Notes under the pieces: generated by a model
Databases searched by the model: none
What the model saw: only the letters and a program-made list of their open reading frames with translations
Told to the model about the DNA's origin: nothing
From: a virus
Virus record (IMG/VR): IMGVR_UViG_3300034104_000607
Coordinates: 1-33,912 of that record
Reading direction: 5' to 3' (one strand)
Length of the DNA: 33,912 nt
Shown here: positions 12,712-19,790 of the stretch, piece by piece
Layout of the letters: each line of letters opens with the position of its first letter
Position numbering within the stretch: the stretch's first letter is position 1
Program-made: the position numbers and the translations under genes

Positions 12712-13281
12712 ATGAATTACAAAGATATTTGGCAGAAACTCTCTGCCATTGATTGTTCCGCGCACGTTGAAAAGAAAAATTCCATGAATTACCTGAGTTG
12801 GGCATGGGCATGGGGTGTCTTGATGGAGCATTACCCGGAAGCCCAGTATTCTTTTGACGCTCCGCAGGTCTTTCCTGACCAGACCCAGATGGTGTTTTGT
12901 ACTGTCAACATCGGTGAATGCTCTCGCCGGATGTGGTTGCCGGTGATGGATCATCGGAATAAGGCGCTGGTCGGGCCGGATTCTTTCGCTATCAATACCG
13001 CCATGATGCGCTGTCTGGTGAAGTGCTTGGCTCTGTATGGGCTTGGTCATTACATCTACGCTGGGGAGGATTTGCCTCAGTCAGAACTGGATCGCCTTTA
13101 TTCCCCGATCACTGAAGATCAATCTAAACAACTTCACGGGATGATTGCTTGTCTGGATGGCGACATTGATATGACTGCATTCCTCAAGTTCTTCGGTATC
13201 TCAGTGTTGTCTAACCTGAAGCAATCCGACTTCCAGAAGGCCAAGCTGGCTCTGGAAAAGAAGCTGGGAGCCAAGGCATGA
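12712..13281 (+). CDS. Single-strand annealing recombinase, DUF1071 (Sak-type)
   Basis: The 189-residue protein shows the DUF1071 signature: YKDIWQKLSAIDCSAHVEKK, NYLSWAWAWGVL, and FAINTAMMRCLVKCLALYGLGHYIYAGEDLP (pattern about residues 82-118). Members of this family are phage annealing proteins, analogous to Sak/RecT/Erf, that pair complementary single strands. The C-terminal part (about 130-185) is less conserved. The next gene, overlapping by 4 nt, is a YqaJ-type exonuclease, giving the usual exonuclease-annealase pair for recombination-dependent replication and end repair. Confidence 0.85.
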   Translation: MNYKDIWQKLSAIDCSAHVEKKNSMNYLSWAWAWGVLMEHYPEAQYSFDAPQVFPDQTQMVFCTVNIGECSRRMWLPVMDHRNKALVGPDSFAINTAMMRCLVKCLALYGLGHYIYAGEDLPQSELDRLYSPITEDQSKQLHGMIACLDGDIDMTAFLKFFGISVLSNLKQSDFQKAKLALEKKLGAKA

Positions 13282-13868
13282 GAATAATCAACGTCCCACA
13301 ACGCAGCCCAGAGTGGTTCGCAGCCCGATTGGGCGTGCCCAGTGCCAGCAACTTTGCGAAGGTAATCACTCCCGGCGGGAAGAAATCAACTCAAGTTGAG
13401 GGGTACTTGAATCGACTTGTCGCTGACATTCTCACTGGTCGATCAGAGCAGCAGGAACCGAACGAAGCAATGCAAAGGGGAACTGACTTGGAACCTGAAG
13501 CAAGAGCCTACTATGAACTGATCGCAGGGCCGGTGGAGGAAGTGGGTTTCTGTATCCACGATGACGGCTTTGGCTGTTCTCCAGATGGGGTGGTGGGTGA
13601 TGGTCTGCTGGAGATCAAATGCCCACTGGCCCATACACACGTTGAATACTTGAGAGAGGGAGTTATTCCATCGATCTACATTCCGCAGGTACAAGGCCAG
13701 ATGCTCGTGATGGACAAAAAGTGGTGCGACTTCCTTTCCTACCATCCCGACATGAAACCGCTACTGGTAAGGGTGGAGAGAGACGAGAAGTTCTGTAACA
13801 CACTTCACGAAGCACTCAAGGAACTGGTGGAGAACATAAAAACCAACGTGGAGGCATTCAAAAAATGA
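13278..13868 (+). CDS. YqaJ / lambda exonuclease-like recombination nuclease
   Basis: The 196-residue protein has the complete YqaJ-type PD-(D/E)XK core: QRSPEWFAARLGVPSAS at residues 8-24, the GTDLEPEA helix with Glu72/Glu74, SPDGVVGDG with Asp103, and LEIKCP with Glu112 and Lys114 as the metal-binding E-x-K. A QVQGQMLV helix follows. It would resect DNA ends 5' to 3' and hand the strand to the DUF1071 annealase encoded just upstream. It overlaps both neighbours by 4 nt, so the three genes are translationally linked. Confidence 0.9.
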   Translation: MRIINVPQRSPEWFAARLGVPSASNFAKVITPGGKKSTQVEGYLNRLVADILTGRSEQQEPNEAMQRGTDLEPEARAYYELIAGPVEEVGFCIHDDGFGCSPDGVVGDGLLEIKCPLAHTHVEYLREGVIPSIYIPQVQGQMLVMDKKWCDFLSYHPDMKPLLVRVERDEKFCNTLHEALKELVENIKTNVEAFKK

Positions 13869-14023
13869 GCATGTTGGAATTGATGTATAAGGAGTGGTTT
13901 GGAGTTGAGTTCAGGGAAGAACCGGAAGAAATAAGGCATCTGGTAGGAGAGGTCTGGAACATGGCTCTCCAATCCGTAAACAGGCAAGTAATTTTAATTT
14001 CATACGACAATGAGGTGATCTAA
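13865..14023 (+). CDS. Small hypothetical protein in the recombination operon
   Basis: A 52-residue ORF starting MSMLELMYKEWFGVEF, with ATGA overlap to the exonuclease stop and a one-nt overlap with the SSB-like gene. The sequence is acidic in the first half (EFREEPEEIRHL) and helical. The perfect operon spacing argues for a real gene. Family not recognised. Confidence 0.7.
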   Translation: MSMLELMYKEWFGVEFREEPEEIRHLVGEVWNMALQSVNRQVILISYDNEVI

Positions 14024-14268
14024 TGAGCTACGACAACAATAACACGGGCGCAATCTGGGGTAACAAAGACAGGAAGACTGATAAACACCCTACTCATACC
14101 GGATCTTTGAACGTGGAGGGAGTTGAGTATCGAGTAAGTGCTTGGGTGGGTGATAAGAGCAAGAACCAGCCGAGTCTTAGTTTCAAAATACAAAAGAAAG
14201 AACCGAAGCAGTCTAAACCCCCTGCTGCTCCGGCAGAAACCTTCGACCCTGATTCCATCCCATTTTAA
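14023..14268 (+). CDS. SSB-like single-strand DNA binding protein with an SSB-type C-terminal tip
   Basis: The 81-residue product has a compact beta domain (NTGAIWGNKDRKTDKHPTHTG, then VEGVEYRVSAWVGD and PSLSFKIQKKE) seen in small phage proteins with an OB-like fold, followed by a Pro/Lys-rich linker and the C-terminus DPDSIPF (residues 75-81). Bacterial SSB ends in an acidic DDDIPF tip that recruits RecQ, RecO, exonuclease I and primase; the match in sequence and position is clear. With exonuclease and annealase upstream, a role in coating single strands and recruiting host factors is likely. The OB fold itself is inferred. Confidence 0.7.
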   Translation: MSYDNNNTGAIWGNKDRKTDKHPTHTGSLNVEGVEYRVSAWVGDKSKNQPSLSFKIQKKEPKQSKPPAAPAETFDPDSIPF

Positions 14269-14278
14269 AGGATACCTT

Positions 14279-14485
14279 ATGCACCTTGGTCAACAGCTTC
14301 GAAAGTACATCGAAAAGAACTACTCTACTAAAAGTGACTTTGCTCGCGCCATTGATTGCAGTCCGCAGTTGCTGCACTCCTACATGCGTAGGGAGAACAT
14401 CAAGTATTCCACGATCACCCGAATCGCTCGCAAGATGGGCATGGAGGCAGCAGACCTTATGGCTTTGCTGAGTGCCTGTGAGTGA
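14279..14485 (+). CDS. Small helix-turn-helix DNA-binding protein (Cro/XRE-like)
   Basis: The 68-residue protein contains a five-helix HTH: LGQQLRKYIEKNYSTKSDFARAIDCSPQLLHSYMRR, with SDFARAIDCSPQLLHSYM as the likely helix-turn-helix (about residues 19-36). It ends shortly after MGMEAADLMALL. The start at 14279 follows AAAGGATACC; upstream in-frame sequence lies in the SSB-like gene. No divergent repressor gene is near, so it is more like a solo transcriptional regulator than half of a lysis-lysogeny switch. Confidence 0.75.
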   Translation: MHLGQQLRKYIEKNYSTKSDFARAIDCSPQLLHSYMRRENIKYSTITRIARKMGMEAADLMALLSACE

Positions 14486-14897
14486 GGGCTTTTCGTGGAT
14501 AGTGAACAGTGATTTTGCTCTGAAGCAGTTCATTGCCTTTGCGGAGGAGCATTACAACAAACACAAGTATGTCATTTTTACATGGAGGCACGGAAAGCAG
14601 CGGACACCCAAGCAGAATTCCAGTCTGCATGTGTATCTCAAGGAAGTGTCAAAAGCACTGAACGATGCCGGGTATGACATGAAGAAAGTGATGAAACCTG
14701 AAGTTGAAATACCGTGGGACGATGATGGGCTGATGGCTAAAGAGCATCTGTGGCGTCCGATTCAAAAGATCATGTTGGACAAGGAATCCACTACAGAACC
14801 TGAAAGGGGTGACTACACGAAAGTGTACGAGGTCTTGAATCGTCACCTTTCAGCGAAGTTCGGTATCTCAGTACCGTGGCCTGTAAATGAAAAATAA
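14472..14897 (+). CDS. NinB-like recombination protein
   Basis: Up to 141 residues depending on the start. The conserved part is WRHGKQRTPKQNSSLHVYLK, followed by KEHLWRPIQKIM and VYEVLNRHLSAKFGISV, a pattern of the NinB (lambda Orf-like) type that helps RecA or annealases load on SSB-covered DNA. No ATG fits; GTG codons at 14472, 14478 and 14502 are in frame, and the ribosome binding site does not decide between them. Position next to an exonuclease, annealase, SSB-like protein and NinG agrees with the recombination role. The family call is moderate: only the RT-x-x-QN core is strongly suggestive. Confidence 0.55.
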   Translation: MPVSEGFSWIVNSDFALKQFIAFAEEHYNKHKYVIFTWRHGKQRTPKQNSSLHVYLKEVSKALNDAGYDMKKVMKPEVEIPWDDDGLMAKEHLWRPIQKIMLDKESTTEPERGDYTKVYEVLNRHLSAKFGISVPWPVNEK

Positions 14898-14908
14898 ACG
14901 AGGGCATC

Positions 14909-15208
14909 ATGAAAAAAAGCAAAAGCGTACAACTGACCGAATCAGCACAACCTGAATATGTAAACATTTGCATCCGAAGCAGAATCGGCAGGTACTTATG
15001 TCGAGATTGGAAATTTAGAAACGACATAAAAAAAGCCCGTGAATATGGATCTGTTCGTAGTTGTATAACCGCAGTCGCACAAATGAAACCAGAAGTAAGA
15101 CAGGATTTGCTTAATCGTGGCGCTCACATAGAAATGACAGTGCGAAGCCAGATCACGCTTCCGCCTTCTGCATTTAATTCTGCAAGCAAATCAAATGAAC
15201 CAGATTGA
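14909..15208 (+). CDS. Hypothetical basic protein
   Basis: A 99-residue basic protein starting MKKSKSVQLTESAQ. It has a predicted strand-helix region (VNICIRSRIGRYLC then WKFRNDIKKAREYG) and a C-terminal Ser-rich tail. It lies 11 nt after the NinB-like gene and overlaps the Rmf/CrpP-like gene by 14 nt. No family recognised; probably binds nucleic acid judging by charge only. Confidence 0.65.
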   Translation: MKKSKSVQLTESAQPEYVNICIRSRIGRYLCRDWKFRNDIKKAREYGSVRSCITAVAQMKPEVRQDLLNRGAHIEMTVRSQITLPPSAFNSASKSNEPD

Positions 15209-15362
15209 ATCGCAGATGTATGATCTCGGAAGGCAGGCTAGGAAAGCTGCTTTCCCGATTGAGGCTTGTAACTTGTCTATGCTCGACTGGAAAAGATCAT
15301 GGTGGGTTGCTGGCTGGCATGACGAGGACATCGAAACCAAGGCAAAAGATGGCGAACAGTAA
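15195..15362 (+). CDS. Small Rmf/CrpP-fold-like protein
   Basis: The 55-residue ORF encodes YDLGRQARKAAFPIEACN, then a W-x5-WVAGWHDED segment. This is the layout of ribosome modulation factor and its CrpP-like relatives (G-x-x-A-x5 then C, then W-x2-GW-x-D/E). Phage members of this group are common and mostly uncharacterised. It overlaps the preceding gene by 14 nt and the NinG start by 14 nt. Whether it touches ribosomes or modifies small molecules is unknown. Confidence 0.6.
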   Translation: MNQIESQMYDLGRQARKAAFPIEACNLSMLDWKRSWWVAGWHDEDIETKAKDGEQ

Positions 15363-15966
15363 ATCACGCTGCTTGCACTGTCGGGAGTACCATCCAGCGG
15401 AGTCTGTTCTGAGGCTCCCGGCAGGTTCTTTTTGCTCACTCCAACACGCCGTGGATTACGGCAGGGCCAAGGCTCAGAAGTCCCGTGAGAAGGCTCAGGC
15501 TACGGCTCACAAGATTCAGAAGGCTAAGGTCAAGGAAGGTGATATCCGGCATCAACATAAACTCACACAATCCACTGTCAACCGCCTTTGCCTTTTGTTG
15601 GATCAGGGGAAGCCCTGTATCTCGTGCGGCAGGCCAGATCAGGGTGGACGGATGAGGAATGCAAGTCATTTCAAATCCCGTGGAGCCAACAGCTTTCTCA
15701 GGTATGACTTGCGCGGACTACACGCATCTTGCGTCCCCTGTAATTTGTACCAGTCTGGGAACATCGAAGGATATCGTTCAGGACTCATACAACGCTACGG
15801 GAGCGCGATTGTCGAATATCTGGATACATCTCCAAGGGTCAAGGCGTGGACGGCTCCAGAGCTAATCCAGATGCGATCTGAGATCTCTGAAGAAATCCGT
15901 CGATTAGAGCGTGGCGAATCCCCTTCCCGGAACTGGCGTCAAATTGTTACAAATATCTTAGTCTAA
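15349..15966 (+). CDS. ninG: NinG-like recombination nuclease
   Basis: The 205-residue protein has the NinG (Rap) layout: an N-terminal zinc site with C8-x2-C11 and C29, a long basic linker helix (about 38-65, AKAQKSREKAQ), then a treble-clef nuclease-like domain with CISC (90-93), NASHFKSRG with His107, and CVPCN (128-131). Lambda NinG/Rap is a structure-specific nuclease that cuts branched recombination intermediates. The start at 15349 places MANSKSRCLHC at the N-terminus as in the family; longer in-frame codons run through the preceding gene. Confidence 0.85.
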   Translation: MANSKSRCLHCREYHPAESVLRLPAGSFCSLQHAVDYGRAKAQKSREKAQATAHKIQKAKVKEGDIRHQHKLTQSTVNRLCLLLDQGKPCISCGRPDQGGRMRNASHFKSRGANSFLRYDLRGLHASCVPCNLYQSGNIEGYRSGLIQRYGSAIVEYLDTSPRVKAWTAPELIQMRSEISEEIRRLERGESPSRNWRQIVTNILV

Positions 15967-16245: not shown

Positions 16246-16337
16246 AGCAATCAATCACTACTTTCCTGACCGCCGCATGTGTGTACATCGTGTGGCTTTA
16301 CATCCTGCTCGAAGTCGTTGACGGGGTGCTGCAATGA
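16242..16337 (+). CDS. 31-residue single-span membrane peptide
   Basis: MKQSITTFLTAACVYIVW followed by LYILLEVVDG is one predicted transmembrane helix (about residues 7-25). ATGA-type overlaps with both neighbours (start 16242 inside the previous stop, stop overlapping the next ATG at 16334) support translation. Function unknown. Confidence 0.55.
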   Translation: MKQSITTFLTAACVYIVWLYILLEVVDGVLQ

Positions 16338-16522
16338 TTAACCGCGAACATGGCAGTCCGTTTGACCGGGGTGGCGCTGACAGCTACTACAGACGCAGGC
16401 AGATGCCGCACAAGATGGTCGGCACTGAACGGGTCTGGCTCACTCCGGACTCTGAGGAGTGGAAGGAGTACATGGAGGGGTATCAAATCAACGAGTCAAT
16501 CGGCAATCATAAGGAGTGGTAA
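16334..16522 (+). CDS. Conserved small phage protein (NREHGSPFDRGGADSYY type)
   Basis: The 62-residue protein begins MINREHGSPFDRGGADSYY, a motif I recognise from small proteins in the accessory regions of many enterobacterial and Vibrio phages, continues with a PHKMVGTERVWLT segment and ends acidic (EEWKEYMEGYQ). No function is assigned to the family. It overlaps the preceding gene by 4 nt and is adjacent to the HNH-recombinase gene. Confidence 0.7.
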   Translation: MINREHGSPFDRGGADSYYRRRQMPHKMVGTERVWLTPDSEEWKEYMEGYQINESIGNHKEW

Positions 16523-16963
16523 ATGGTGGCTATTTGCTTTGAGTGTTCTAAGCCAGCACAACATCTACACCATGTGGTTCCTCGAAGTTGCGGTGGAACA
16601 AAAACTTTACCTTTATGCGAACAATGCCACGGGCTAGTCCATGATAAACAATTTATGTCTATCTCGGCGCTCACCAGCTCGGCTATGCAGCATATGAAGG
16701 CAGAGGGCCGGTTTACAGGCAATGCTCCTTACGGCTGGCAGGTTGGTGCTGATGGTCATCTGGTCGAATCTGAAGCAGAGCAGCGTGTATTGAGCATAGT
16801 CAGTCATTACCGCGCACAGGGGCTGTCAGTACGAAAAATTGCCAGCATCCTTGCTGAAAAGGGGTTCAGATCAAGGGCAGGCAAGCCTTTGCACTTCCAA
16901 TCGGTTGCGAGGATGGCGGGCAGACCCGACCCATCAATCTTTTGTCAAATACAACAAATATAG
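16523..16963 (+). CDS. HNH-type zinc domain fused to a serine-recombinase DNA-binding domain
   Basis: The 146-residue protein starts after a strong AAGGAG site. Residues 5-40 form an HNH/zinc cluster: CFEC (5-8), HHVVPRSCGG (16-25), CEQCHGLVH (32-40). Residues about 60-135 match the Recombinase domain of large serine recombinases: GRFTGNAPYGW, then QRVLSIVSHYRAQGLSVRKI and LAEKGFRSRAGKPL. The catalytic serine domain of those enzymes is absent. It may be a site-directed endonuclease using a recombinase-derived DNA-binding module. The fusion appears genuine, since the frame is unbroken and the spacing between the two parts is short. Confidence 0.75.
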   Translation: MVAICFECSKPAQHLHHVVPRSCGGTKTLPLCEQCHGLVHDKQFMSISALTSSAMQHMKAEGRFTGNAPYGWQVGADGHLVESEAEQRVLSIVSHYRAQGLSVRKIASILAEKGFRSRAGKPLHFQSVARMAGRPDPSIFCQIQQI

Positions 16964-16975
16964 AAGGAATTATGT

Positions 16976-17146
16976 ATGGTACTCAAAAAGATTAGCGATC
17001 ATTTCTGGATGCTGTCGAGTGATGACGGATTGGTAAAACTAACATGGTTCGGCGCAACCAAGGGTGAGGTGCTGTTTAGGTTCAACGCCTACATCCGCTC
17101 AGTTGATCTGGACAAGATTCGTTACAAGCCGAGGGTAAGTGTATGA
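16976..17146 (+). CDS. Small hypothetical beta-rich protein
   Basis: A 56-residue protein starting MVLKKISDHFWMLSSD, apparently all-beta (LVKLTWFGATKGEVLFRFNAY). AGAAGGAATT upstream of 16976 can serve as ribosome binding site, and the stop overlaps the next gene's ATG (17143). A nearby ATG at 16972 runs into an early stop. Function unknown. Confidence 0.6.
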   Translation: MVLKKISDHFWMLSSDDGLVKLTWFGATKGEVLFRFNAYIRSVDLDKIRYKPRVSV

Positions 17147-17535
17147 GCATCGACAACTGCCAGAAGTGCGACAAGAGGCTGGACACTGACTTTGTTGAGT
17201 ACCAGCCAGACGGGAGCCTGTATTGCGGAGCGTGTGAGGCTGACATTGAGGAGGAGAAGTTGCAGAAACCAGACTGGAAAGCACTGGCGGGGGAGCTTGC
17301 GGATGCTTTGGACGCACTATTCGCTGGTAAGGTGCTGTGCGATGCGGAGCCGGTACGATGGATCAAGCCCGGATGCGAGCAGTACGACAACTTGATTGCT
17401 ACCGCCAACAAAACCGACATTGGCACGATGCGCATAGTTGCCATACAGGGAGCGGCAGAAGAATACGCTAGGCAGGGTAACGCGGTGCTAGCTAACGAGC
17501 TGTGGGGTAAGTTTGGCAAGGAGGGCGGGGAATGA
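17143..17535 (+). CDS. Zinc-ribbon protein, unknown function
   Basis: The 130-residue protein has an N-terminal zinc module CQKC (6-9) with DTDFVEYQPDGSLYCGAC providing CGAC about 20 residues later, as in small zinc ribbons, followed by a helical domain (WKALAGELADALDALFAG) and an Ala-rich end. Proteins with a C-x2-C-x-K-x2-DTDF start are common in phage accessory regions. It overlaps the neighbouring genes by 4 nt on each side. Confidence 0.65.
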   Translation: MSIDNCQKCDKRLDTDFVEYQPDGSLYCGACEADIEEEKLQKPDWKALAGELADALDALFAGKVLCDAEPVRWIKPGCEQYDNLIATANKTDIGTMRIVAIQGAAEEYARQGNAVLANELWGKFGKEGGE

Positions 17536-18974: not shown

Positions 18975-19009
18975 TTGTAGATGCTTCCCGTCATATAGCA
19001 AGATATAAT
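18975..19009 (+). promoter_or_regulatory. Candidate promoter with perfect -10 before the DUF1376 gene
   Basis: The 197-nt gap 18922-19118 contains TATAAT at 19004-19009. The best upstream hexamer, TTGTAG at 18975-18980, is 23 nt away, too far for a normal -35, so an activator or extended contact would be needed. A roughly 100-nt leader to the ATG at 19119 would result; it holds a 20-codon ORF (19045-19107) that could be a leader peptide. I see nothing else in the gap. Confidence 0.4.
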
Positions 19010-19118
19010 GTTCCATGCCGGTGGCCGGTTCATAGCTGATCCCTATGAATGGTTCCGTCCGCTACCCATGCGGTCACTGGCAAGTTTTAAATCGCGGACA
19101 GACATAGCGGAACACATA

Positions 19119-19451
19119 ATGAACTTTTACCGCCGTTTTCCGGGCGATTATTTGCGTGACACCGGCACGTTGACCCTTCAGCAACATGGCGCATATTGCG
19201 TGATGCTTGACTACCACTATTCAACCGAAATGCCATTGCCGACTGGTGATGCCTTGTACCTGTTGCTTCGAGCGACAACCAAGGTTGAGAAGGCTGCGGT
19301 TGATTTTATCTGTGAGAATTACTGGAGCCTGATCCCTGAAGGTTACATCAACAGGAAGGCGGTGAAGGAGTTTTCAAGGACAGAAAAGCGCAGGGTGGTG
19401 AATGCTCAAAATGCTCGAAAGCGATGGGCACCAATCGAGATACCAAGCTAA
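19119..19451 (+). CDS. DUF1376 replication-associated protein
   Basis: The 110-residue protein matches DUF1376: MNFYRRFPGDYLRDTGTLTL, QHGAYCVMLDYHYSTEMPLP, LYLLLRATTKVEKAAVD. The family is common in phage replication modules and resembles the winged-helix N-terminus of some replication initiators or helicase loaders. An in-frame longer reading from 19008 adds residues unlike the family, so 19119 is preferred, although its ribosome binding site (AGCGGAA) is weak. It opens the replication group followed by helicase and nuclease. Confidence 0.75.
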   Translation: MNFYRRFPGDYLRDTGTLTLQQHGAYCVMLDYHYSTEMPLPTGDALYLLLRATTKVEKAAVDFICENYWSLIPEGYINRKAVKEFSRTEKRRVVNAQNARKRWAPIEIPS

Positions 19452-19458
19452 TGCTTTA

Positions 19459-19482
19459 TGCGAATCGCACTGCGAATTGCAC
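19459..19482. repeat. Tandem 12-bp near-palindromes, candidate operator
   Basis: TGCGAATCGCAC (19459-19470) is followed directly by TGCGAATTGCAC (19471-19482), one mismatch apart. In the first, TGCGA and TCGCA are perfect inverted arms around a single A. A third related stretch, ATCGCAATGC, lies at about 19487-19496. The element is in the non-coding gap 19452-19574 ahead of the Cys-rich and helicase genes, so binding of a small dimeric regulator is plausible. A weak TATACT (19519-19524) follows. Confidence 0.5.
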
Positions 19483-19574
19483 AAAAATCGCAATGCAACA
19501 CCAGACACCAGATATTTATATACTCATACACGGGCTTGGCTGGCCTGTACTACGGGTTAACAGGGGATTGGCTG

Positions 19575-19790
19575 ATGATCTACTGCGGTGAATGCGTCCA
19601 CTTCCTTGTCAACCCCACAACTGCCGACAACCCAGATGGCCGGTGCTTGGCACCAATACCTGCAGCAATCATCAAACCAGACCGCTATACAGTCTCGGCT
19701 TTAACTATGCTAGACTGCTCGGTGAGTCATAAAAAACCAAAAGAGGGTAAACAATATGGAATTAAGACCGCACCAGATCAAAGCCATTGA
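19575..19790 (+). CDS. Small Cys-rich protein preceding the helicase
   Basis: From the ATG at 19575, with AGGGG about 8 nt upstream, the product has 71 residues: MIYCGECVHF (CGEC pair), then PDGRCLAPIPA and a later Cys. Such C-x2-C-x-HF then DGRC proteins look like small zinc-binding phage proteins. The 3' end overlaps the helicase start by 35 nt; the tail is basic (KKPKEGKQYG). The frame stays open upstream to 19458, but there it lies in a repeat-containing gap and is unlikely to be translated. Confidence 0.55.
   Translation: MIYCGECVHFLVNPTTADNPDGRCLAPIPAAIIKPDRYTVSALTMLDCSVSHKKPKEGKQYGIKTAPDQSH

Follow-up and report, generated by a model that had tools for sequence, protein, structure and literature searches.

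The window, that is the whole stretch of viral DNA that was analysed (33,912 nucleotides), contains a 441-bp open reading frame at 16523-16963, whose ATG stands directly 3' of the upstream gene's stop codon. The features of the locus are as follows.

12712..15966, + strand: recombination cluster just upstream, with a Sak-like annealing protein, a RecE-like exonuclease, NinB and NinG (Pfam, PHROGs)
16334..16522, + strand: upstream flanking gene, 62 aa, function unknown (ORF, relatives)
16511..16516, + strand: Shine-Dalgarno-like site AAGGAG inside the end of the upstream gene (read from the sequence)
16523..16975, + strand: insertion of 453 bp that is absent from the empty allele of contigs L207 and L208, with ATGGT at both ends (allele comparison)
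16523..16963, + strand: coding sequence, 146 aa, HNH-like module plus serine-recombinase DNA-binding domain (ORF, Pfam, PHROG, model)
16523..16651, + strand: compact HNH-like zinc module, residues 1-43 (Pfam, alignments, model; Cys/His set in 57/57 family members)
16658..16921, + strand: predicted end of the alpha-E helix and complete DNA-binding domain of a short serine recombinase, residues 46-133 (PHROG_95, structure superposition, homologues)
16964..16968, + strand: Shine-Dalgarno-like site AAGGA, which the insert supplies to the downstream gene (from inspection of the sequence)
16976..17146, + strand: downstream flanking gene, 56 aa, function unknown, conserved in 25 contigs (relatives)

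Two-part architecture of the protein

The protein begins with the HNH-like zinc module (1-43), followed by the end of an alpha-E helix and a complete DNA-binding domain (46-133). Pfam placed HNH (PF01844) on residues 5-42 (E 0.0065; 17 bits, curated cut-off 21.4 bits) and Recombinase (PF07508) on residues 89-131 (E 0.033), each below its curated cut-off for the window protein alone. Among 24 aligned homologues, HNH was detected in 24/24 (best E 1.8e-5) and Recombinase in 21/24 (best E 1.6e-8). Residues 46-131 matched the integrase group PHROG_95 (E 1.2e-9), and an AlphaFold model (pLDDT 86) comprised a beta-beta-alpha zinc unit (4-40), a helix (47-60) and a domain at 72-133. The resolvase domain PF00239 had no match anywhere in the 33.9-kb contig, window protein included. 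The protein has the RD-type DNA-binding domain of a serine recombinase but not the resolvase catalytic domain with its active-site Ser. A preliminary description of this DNA had proposed an HNH-zinc module fused to a Recombinase domain, which the reading frame, Pfam, PHROG_95, the 24 homologues and the model bear out; its statement that the resolvase catalytic domain is missing agrees with the absence of PF00239 from both protein and contig.

The module carries the zinc cysteines C5, C8, C32 and C35 and four further histidines (H16, H17, H36 and H40), and all eight (CxxC...HH...CxxCHxxxH) are invariant in 57/57 family proteins. The search pattern contained the core HHxxPxxxGGTKTxPLC and so in part enforced its conservation; the residues C5, C8, C35, H36 and H40 lie outside the pattern, yet are invariant as well. 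The layout CxxC...HHxxP...C..CHxxxH is common to the HNH domains of IscB and McrA, and the HNH profile of the family matched the IscB nuclease domain with E 1e-7 and McrA with 0.0014. In contrast to these, the window protein has neither RuvC nor an RNA guide, and its short strand-connecting loop (GGTKTxPLC) is four residues shorter. This four-residue deletion removes the central Asn of H-N-H throughout the set found, so that two CxxC zinc knuckles and the His pairs of HNH (His-Me finger) nucleases are present but not the Asn. The model predicts strands at 14-18 and 27-31 and a helix at 33-39 (beta-beta-alpha); a fold search with the module alone matched mainly zinc fingers, none significantly.

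For pairs with measurable divergence, dN/dS was 0-0.29 in the HNH part versus 0.12-1.09 in the DNA-binding part, and purifying selection is stronger on the former. Roles for the histidines were assigned by analogy with T4 endonuclease VII and ZRANB3 (PMC5481773): H17 would act as general base, with H16 and H36 coordinating the metal. Because the middle Asn is absent, we infer catalysis from the conserved His/Cys set only; a nuclease activity of the module is plausible. The idea put forward in the preliminary description, an endonuclease whose targeting domain derives from a recombinase, holds up by architecture, but its catalytic half carries this qualification.

When residues 45-146 of the model were superposed on integrase structures, we obtained Z 9.5 for the SPbeta-type integrase 9dxf_A (2.5 Å over 93 positions), 8.3 for Bxb1 9iu8_A (2.9 Å over 96) and 8.2 for PhiC31 9ifc_A. 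The superposition (Z 8-10) covers the last part of helix alpha-E and the recombinase domain of these integrases, and in the model the DNA-binding part adopts the RD fold of serine integrases. While this fold is common to the large serine integrases, the window protein lacks both their catalytic domain and their zinc-ribbon/coiled-coil domain. The nearest recombinase outside the family is a 219-aa Methylomagnum plasmid protein (WP_221067418, 45% amino acid identity over residues 51-131). The closest recombinases are found on plasmids (Methylomagnum, Solidesulfovibrio), and the plasmid matches examined (219-239 aa) consist of a catalytic domain and a part of about 85 aa that resembles the window DNA-binding domain, so the window protein retains everything that follows the catalytic domain in a short serine recombinase. 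With such proteins it shares the alpha-E end, the whole DNA-binding domain and the C-terminal end; since both end alike, the DNA-binding part is complete and not truncated. Where they have the catalytic resolvase domain, the window protein has the HNH-like module. The preliminary description had named large serine recombinases as the source, and the fold does match large integrases, but short serine recombinases match too, and those of 219-226 aa are the nearest parents.

Occupied and empty alleles of the insertion site

Relatives of the window phage were traced via the terminase and via the downstream gene. Two of them, L207 and L208, are identical to each other and share about 90% nucleotide identity with the window. 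In both, AAGGAGTGGTAA closes the upstream gene, and the downstream gene starts immediately after it (ATGGTACTC). Both gene ends are present in the window with exactly 453 bp between them and no flank lost, and the insertion point is the start-codon junction of the two flanking genes. The AAGGAG site lies 5' of the downstream gene in the empty allele and 5' of the HNH gene in the window. Since the insert opens with ATGGT like the gene it displaces, it takes over this site and supplies its own AAGGA for the downstream gene.

Among the 25 contigs that hold the downstream gene, the two flanking genes abut or nearly abut in 9, and short inserts of other kinds lie between them in others; the HNH gene occurs in none of these contigs. 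A single-sequence search of IMG/VR revealed no donor phage with the same insert; the presence/absence pattern could therefore also reflect loss or ordinary gene gain. An inverted repeat around the insertion point in the empty alleles L105, L107 and L109 (GAGTA-N10-TACTC) was considered as a possible binding site and dropped, because its left arm is absent from the closest empty alleles, L207/L208. Blastn gaps at 17147-17531 and 18989-19723 of the window mark further segments that are missing in L207, and this region holds several accessory insertions besides the HNH gene.

The family, its neighbours and domain exchange

Scanning DNA with a degenerate pattern of the HHxxPxxxGGTKTxPLC core yielded 42 IMG/VR contigs, and alignment searches added others. 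The same architecture, for which the preliminary description had suggested a search in other phages, recurs in a mostly uncultured phage family: 57 distinct proteins, nearly all on viral contigs and encoded in many unrelated neighbourhoods, carry the module. In about 24 of them a PyGy-type recombinase domain follows it, and the others have a second resolvase-type domain ('RAKERGVxLG...') or simple HTH domains. In bacteria and archaea, the core occurred at only 9 loci among 84,980 genomes. The IMG/VR single-sequence search returned no close relative of the whole window protein, nor of the neighbouring gene at 17143. No record among 50,697 cultured phages reached 80% query coverage with any of three queries; the partial matches checked were HNH-only proteins or recombinases and not fusions, and the window region had no nucleotide relatives among cultured phages. 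The composite has no family in Pfam, PHROGs or NCBIfam, and no description of an HNH and recombinase-domain fusion was found in the literature searched, which covered only a minority of the subscription journals. Free-standing phage nucleases are a known kind; for this composite neither a description nor a cultured phage was found.

Some members differ from this pattern. A tandem pair of HNH and recombinase-domain genes with differing DNA-binding domains lies at 4120-5184 of L042. Repeated HTH units replace the recombinase domain after the HNH module in L031, L035, L046 and L048, and about 130 aa separate the module from a resolvase-type domain in L053 and L054 (Polaribacter and Psychroserpens genomes). 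DNA methyltransferase genes adjoin the HNH gene in two large phages (L088, 9033-9923; L093, 10438-11130). An HNH reading frame beside an Oscillatoria plasmid recombinase (L232) was set aside, as its HNH is of normal length and the reading frame stands in an unrelated context.

The related phages L010, L015 and L023 share one slot for the HNH gene. When L010 was compared with L023, nucleotide identity was 85% in the 250 bp upstream, 84% in the HNH codons and 76% in the 300 bp downstream, but 47.5% in the DNA-binding part, which is the level of shuffled sequences (mean 44, maximum 47). The break in identity lies at the domain border, near residue 52. The recombinase DNA-binding domain has been swapped as a unit, with the HNH module kept constant. 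A comparison of L083, L087 and L089 with L095-L098 likewise revealed one slot, beside a recombinase gene, occupied by HNH proteins with unrelated C-termini. In a tree of DNA-binding domains, HNH proteins and recombinases were intermixed; overall resolution was weak, and a single HNH clade was rejected (p-AU 0.012).

Serine recombinase genes were present on 15 of the 42 contigs; the window contig is among the 27 without one, many of which are fragments. In 12 of the 15 the recombinase and the HNH gene were at most 1 kb apart (random placement would give 1.6 such contigs), and these 12 represent at least three phage lineages, ten of them apparently a single one. At 9002-10408 of L061, a recombinase gene is followed by a small excisionase-like HTH gene and the HNH gene, and the DNA-binding domains of recombinase and HNH protein are 60% identical in amino acids and 67% in nucleotides, a case of domain duplication. 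This trio sits just after the capsid genes and before a ParA-like gene. In the 128-kb contig L200, what appears by eye to be an IS607-type TnpA/TnpB pair (219-2073) lies about 2 kb from a family gene.

Candidate roles of the gene

We consider the window gene to be a free-standing (intronless) homing-type endonuclease with a probability of about 0.55, whereby we infer DNA cleavage, target identity and homing mobility. Since the precise 453-base insertion is absent from the closest relatives and the family is recurrent, the gene probably encodes a mobile nuclease with site-directed action and a previously undescribed design. The C-terminal half, derived from a short serine recombinase, would bind a specific DNA site, and the HNH-like module would nick or cut nearby in phage genomes that lack the gene. 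Recombinational repair, aided by the Sak, exonuclease, NinB and NinG proteins of the phage, would then copy the gene into the space between its two small neighbours. The targeting domain is exchangeable, different recombinase DNA-binding domains being swapped in next to a constant nuclease-like module.

The exact empty site in L207/L208 and the intergenic position beside conserved genes support homing. The recurrence of the family in unrelated neighbourhoods, the IscB/McrA profile matches, the conserved Cys/His set, the low dN/dS of the HNH part, the RD fold of the DNA-binding part, the domain swapping and the rejection of a single HNH clade lend it further support. Against it count the deleted middle Asn, the lack of a significant structural match for the module alone, the other short inserts in the slot, and the observation that in some lineages the slot of the gene has not changed despite large divergence, whereas an element that roams freely would move. 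T4 seg/mob nucleases are intergenic and lie beside conserved genes (PMC2988022). The window gene resembles these free-standing homing endonucleases as a small stand-alone gene between conserved genes, with a clean empty allele in relatives and a nuclease domain joined to a DNA-binding domain, but the DNA-binding domain is a different one and the likeness is known here from sequence and model alone. Phage homing nucleases also shuffle their DNA-binding domains (PMC10448857): ICP1 Odn and the IPA-HNH/T5orf172 homing nucleases combine a nuclease with a borrowed, swappable domain, as does the window protein. However, those have a T5orf172 fold or an AP2 domain, and Odn borrows RepA_N, not a recombinase domain; a Pfam scan found neither T5orf172 nor RepA_N in the window protein.

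The preliminary description had offered either a homing or a defence/exclusion nuclease. The clean presence/absence insertion favours the former; a less likely candidate is defence or exclusion, in the form of an interference nuclease directed at the att or res sites of competing satellites, prophages or plasmids. Odn is the precedent (PMC10448857): its homing-type nuclease domain is joined to the RepA_N of a satellite and cuts the satellite's origin, and from one related phage to another its DNA-binding domain is exchanged. The phage would here carry a copy of a competitor recombinase's DNA-binding domain, and swaps, such as those seen at a constant slot, would track the competitors present. 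The nearest recombinases are indeed plasmid-borne (Methylomagnum, Solidesulfovibrio), but none is nearly identical (best 45% in amino acids), PADLOC returned no match for the window protein, and homing accounts for the clean insertion equally well; we regard this role as rather unlikely. Less likely still is a partnership with a serine recombinase of common DNA specificity at the same site, in which the nuclease might, for example, cut the unoccupied site in a mobile module. The proximity in 12 of 15 recombinase-holding contigs (1.6 expected, at least three lineages) and the recombinase/HTH/HNH order of L061 with its similar domains (60% amino acid, 67% nucleotide identity) fit such a pair. 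Yet 27 of 42 contigs, many of them fragments, lack the recombinase, and outside L061 the HNH domains are not clearly nearest to that of their own neighbour. The window copy would have to be a member that lost its recombinase or acts on one elsewhere.

The missing middle Asn and the zinc-finger matches of the module would also suit a non-catalytic DNA-binding regulator with a purely structural zinc module. We consider this improbable: zinc binding needs no more than four Cys, yet H16, H17, H36 and H40 do not vary across the 57 proteins, and purifying selection is stronger on the HNH part than on the DNA-binding part. A recombinase N-terminus in homologues or a frameshift, the outcomes named in the preliminary description as pointing to a decayed remnant, did not emerge: homologues are overwhelmingly HNH fusions with a conserved reading frame, and the survey ruled decay out as a candidate. 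Although the DNA-binding part is clearly recombinase-derived, the intact architecture in dozens of contigs, the purifying selection and the clean insertion edges leave a decayed serine recombinase or an assembly artefact with a negligible likelihood.

A broader reading is tentative and less likely than the homing nuclease. In a protein-guided nuclease class, a constant mini-HNH would repeatedly acquire its DNA-binding domain from a recombinase, either a neighbour or a competitor. Nuclease and recombinase would therefore share one site, and the nuclease would serve as a weapon aimed at attachment sites or as the cutting partner in a guide-free analogue of the IS607 TnpA/TnpB pair. In nature, serine-recombinase DNA-binding domains are interchangeable units that are found joined to a nuclease-like module. 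Should the enzymes cut DNA, they would be small (~140 aa) nucleases that are specific for a site and whose specificity can be swapped; they would offer a route to reading recombinase half-site specificity and possibly represent a new layer of conflict over attachment sites. With the exchanged pair L010/L023 and the L061 pair of matched domains, this can be tested directly.

Elsewhere in the window, after the tail genes, a 158-aa reading frame at 9971-10447 matches PHROG_16521 (unknown function, 2.4e-24), and by eye its end looks like the DNA-binding repeats of homing nucleases.
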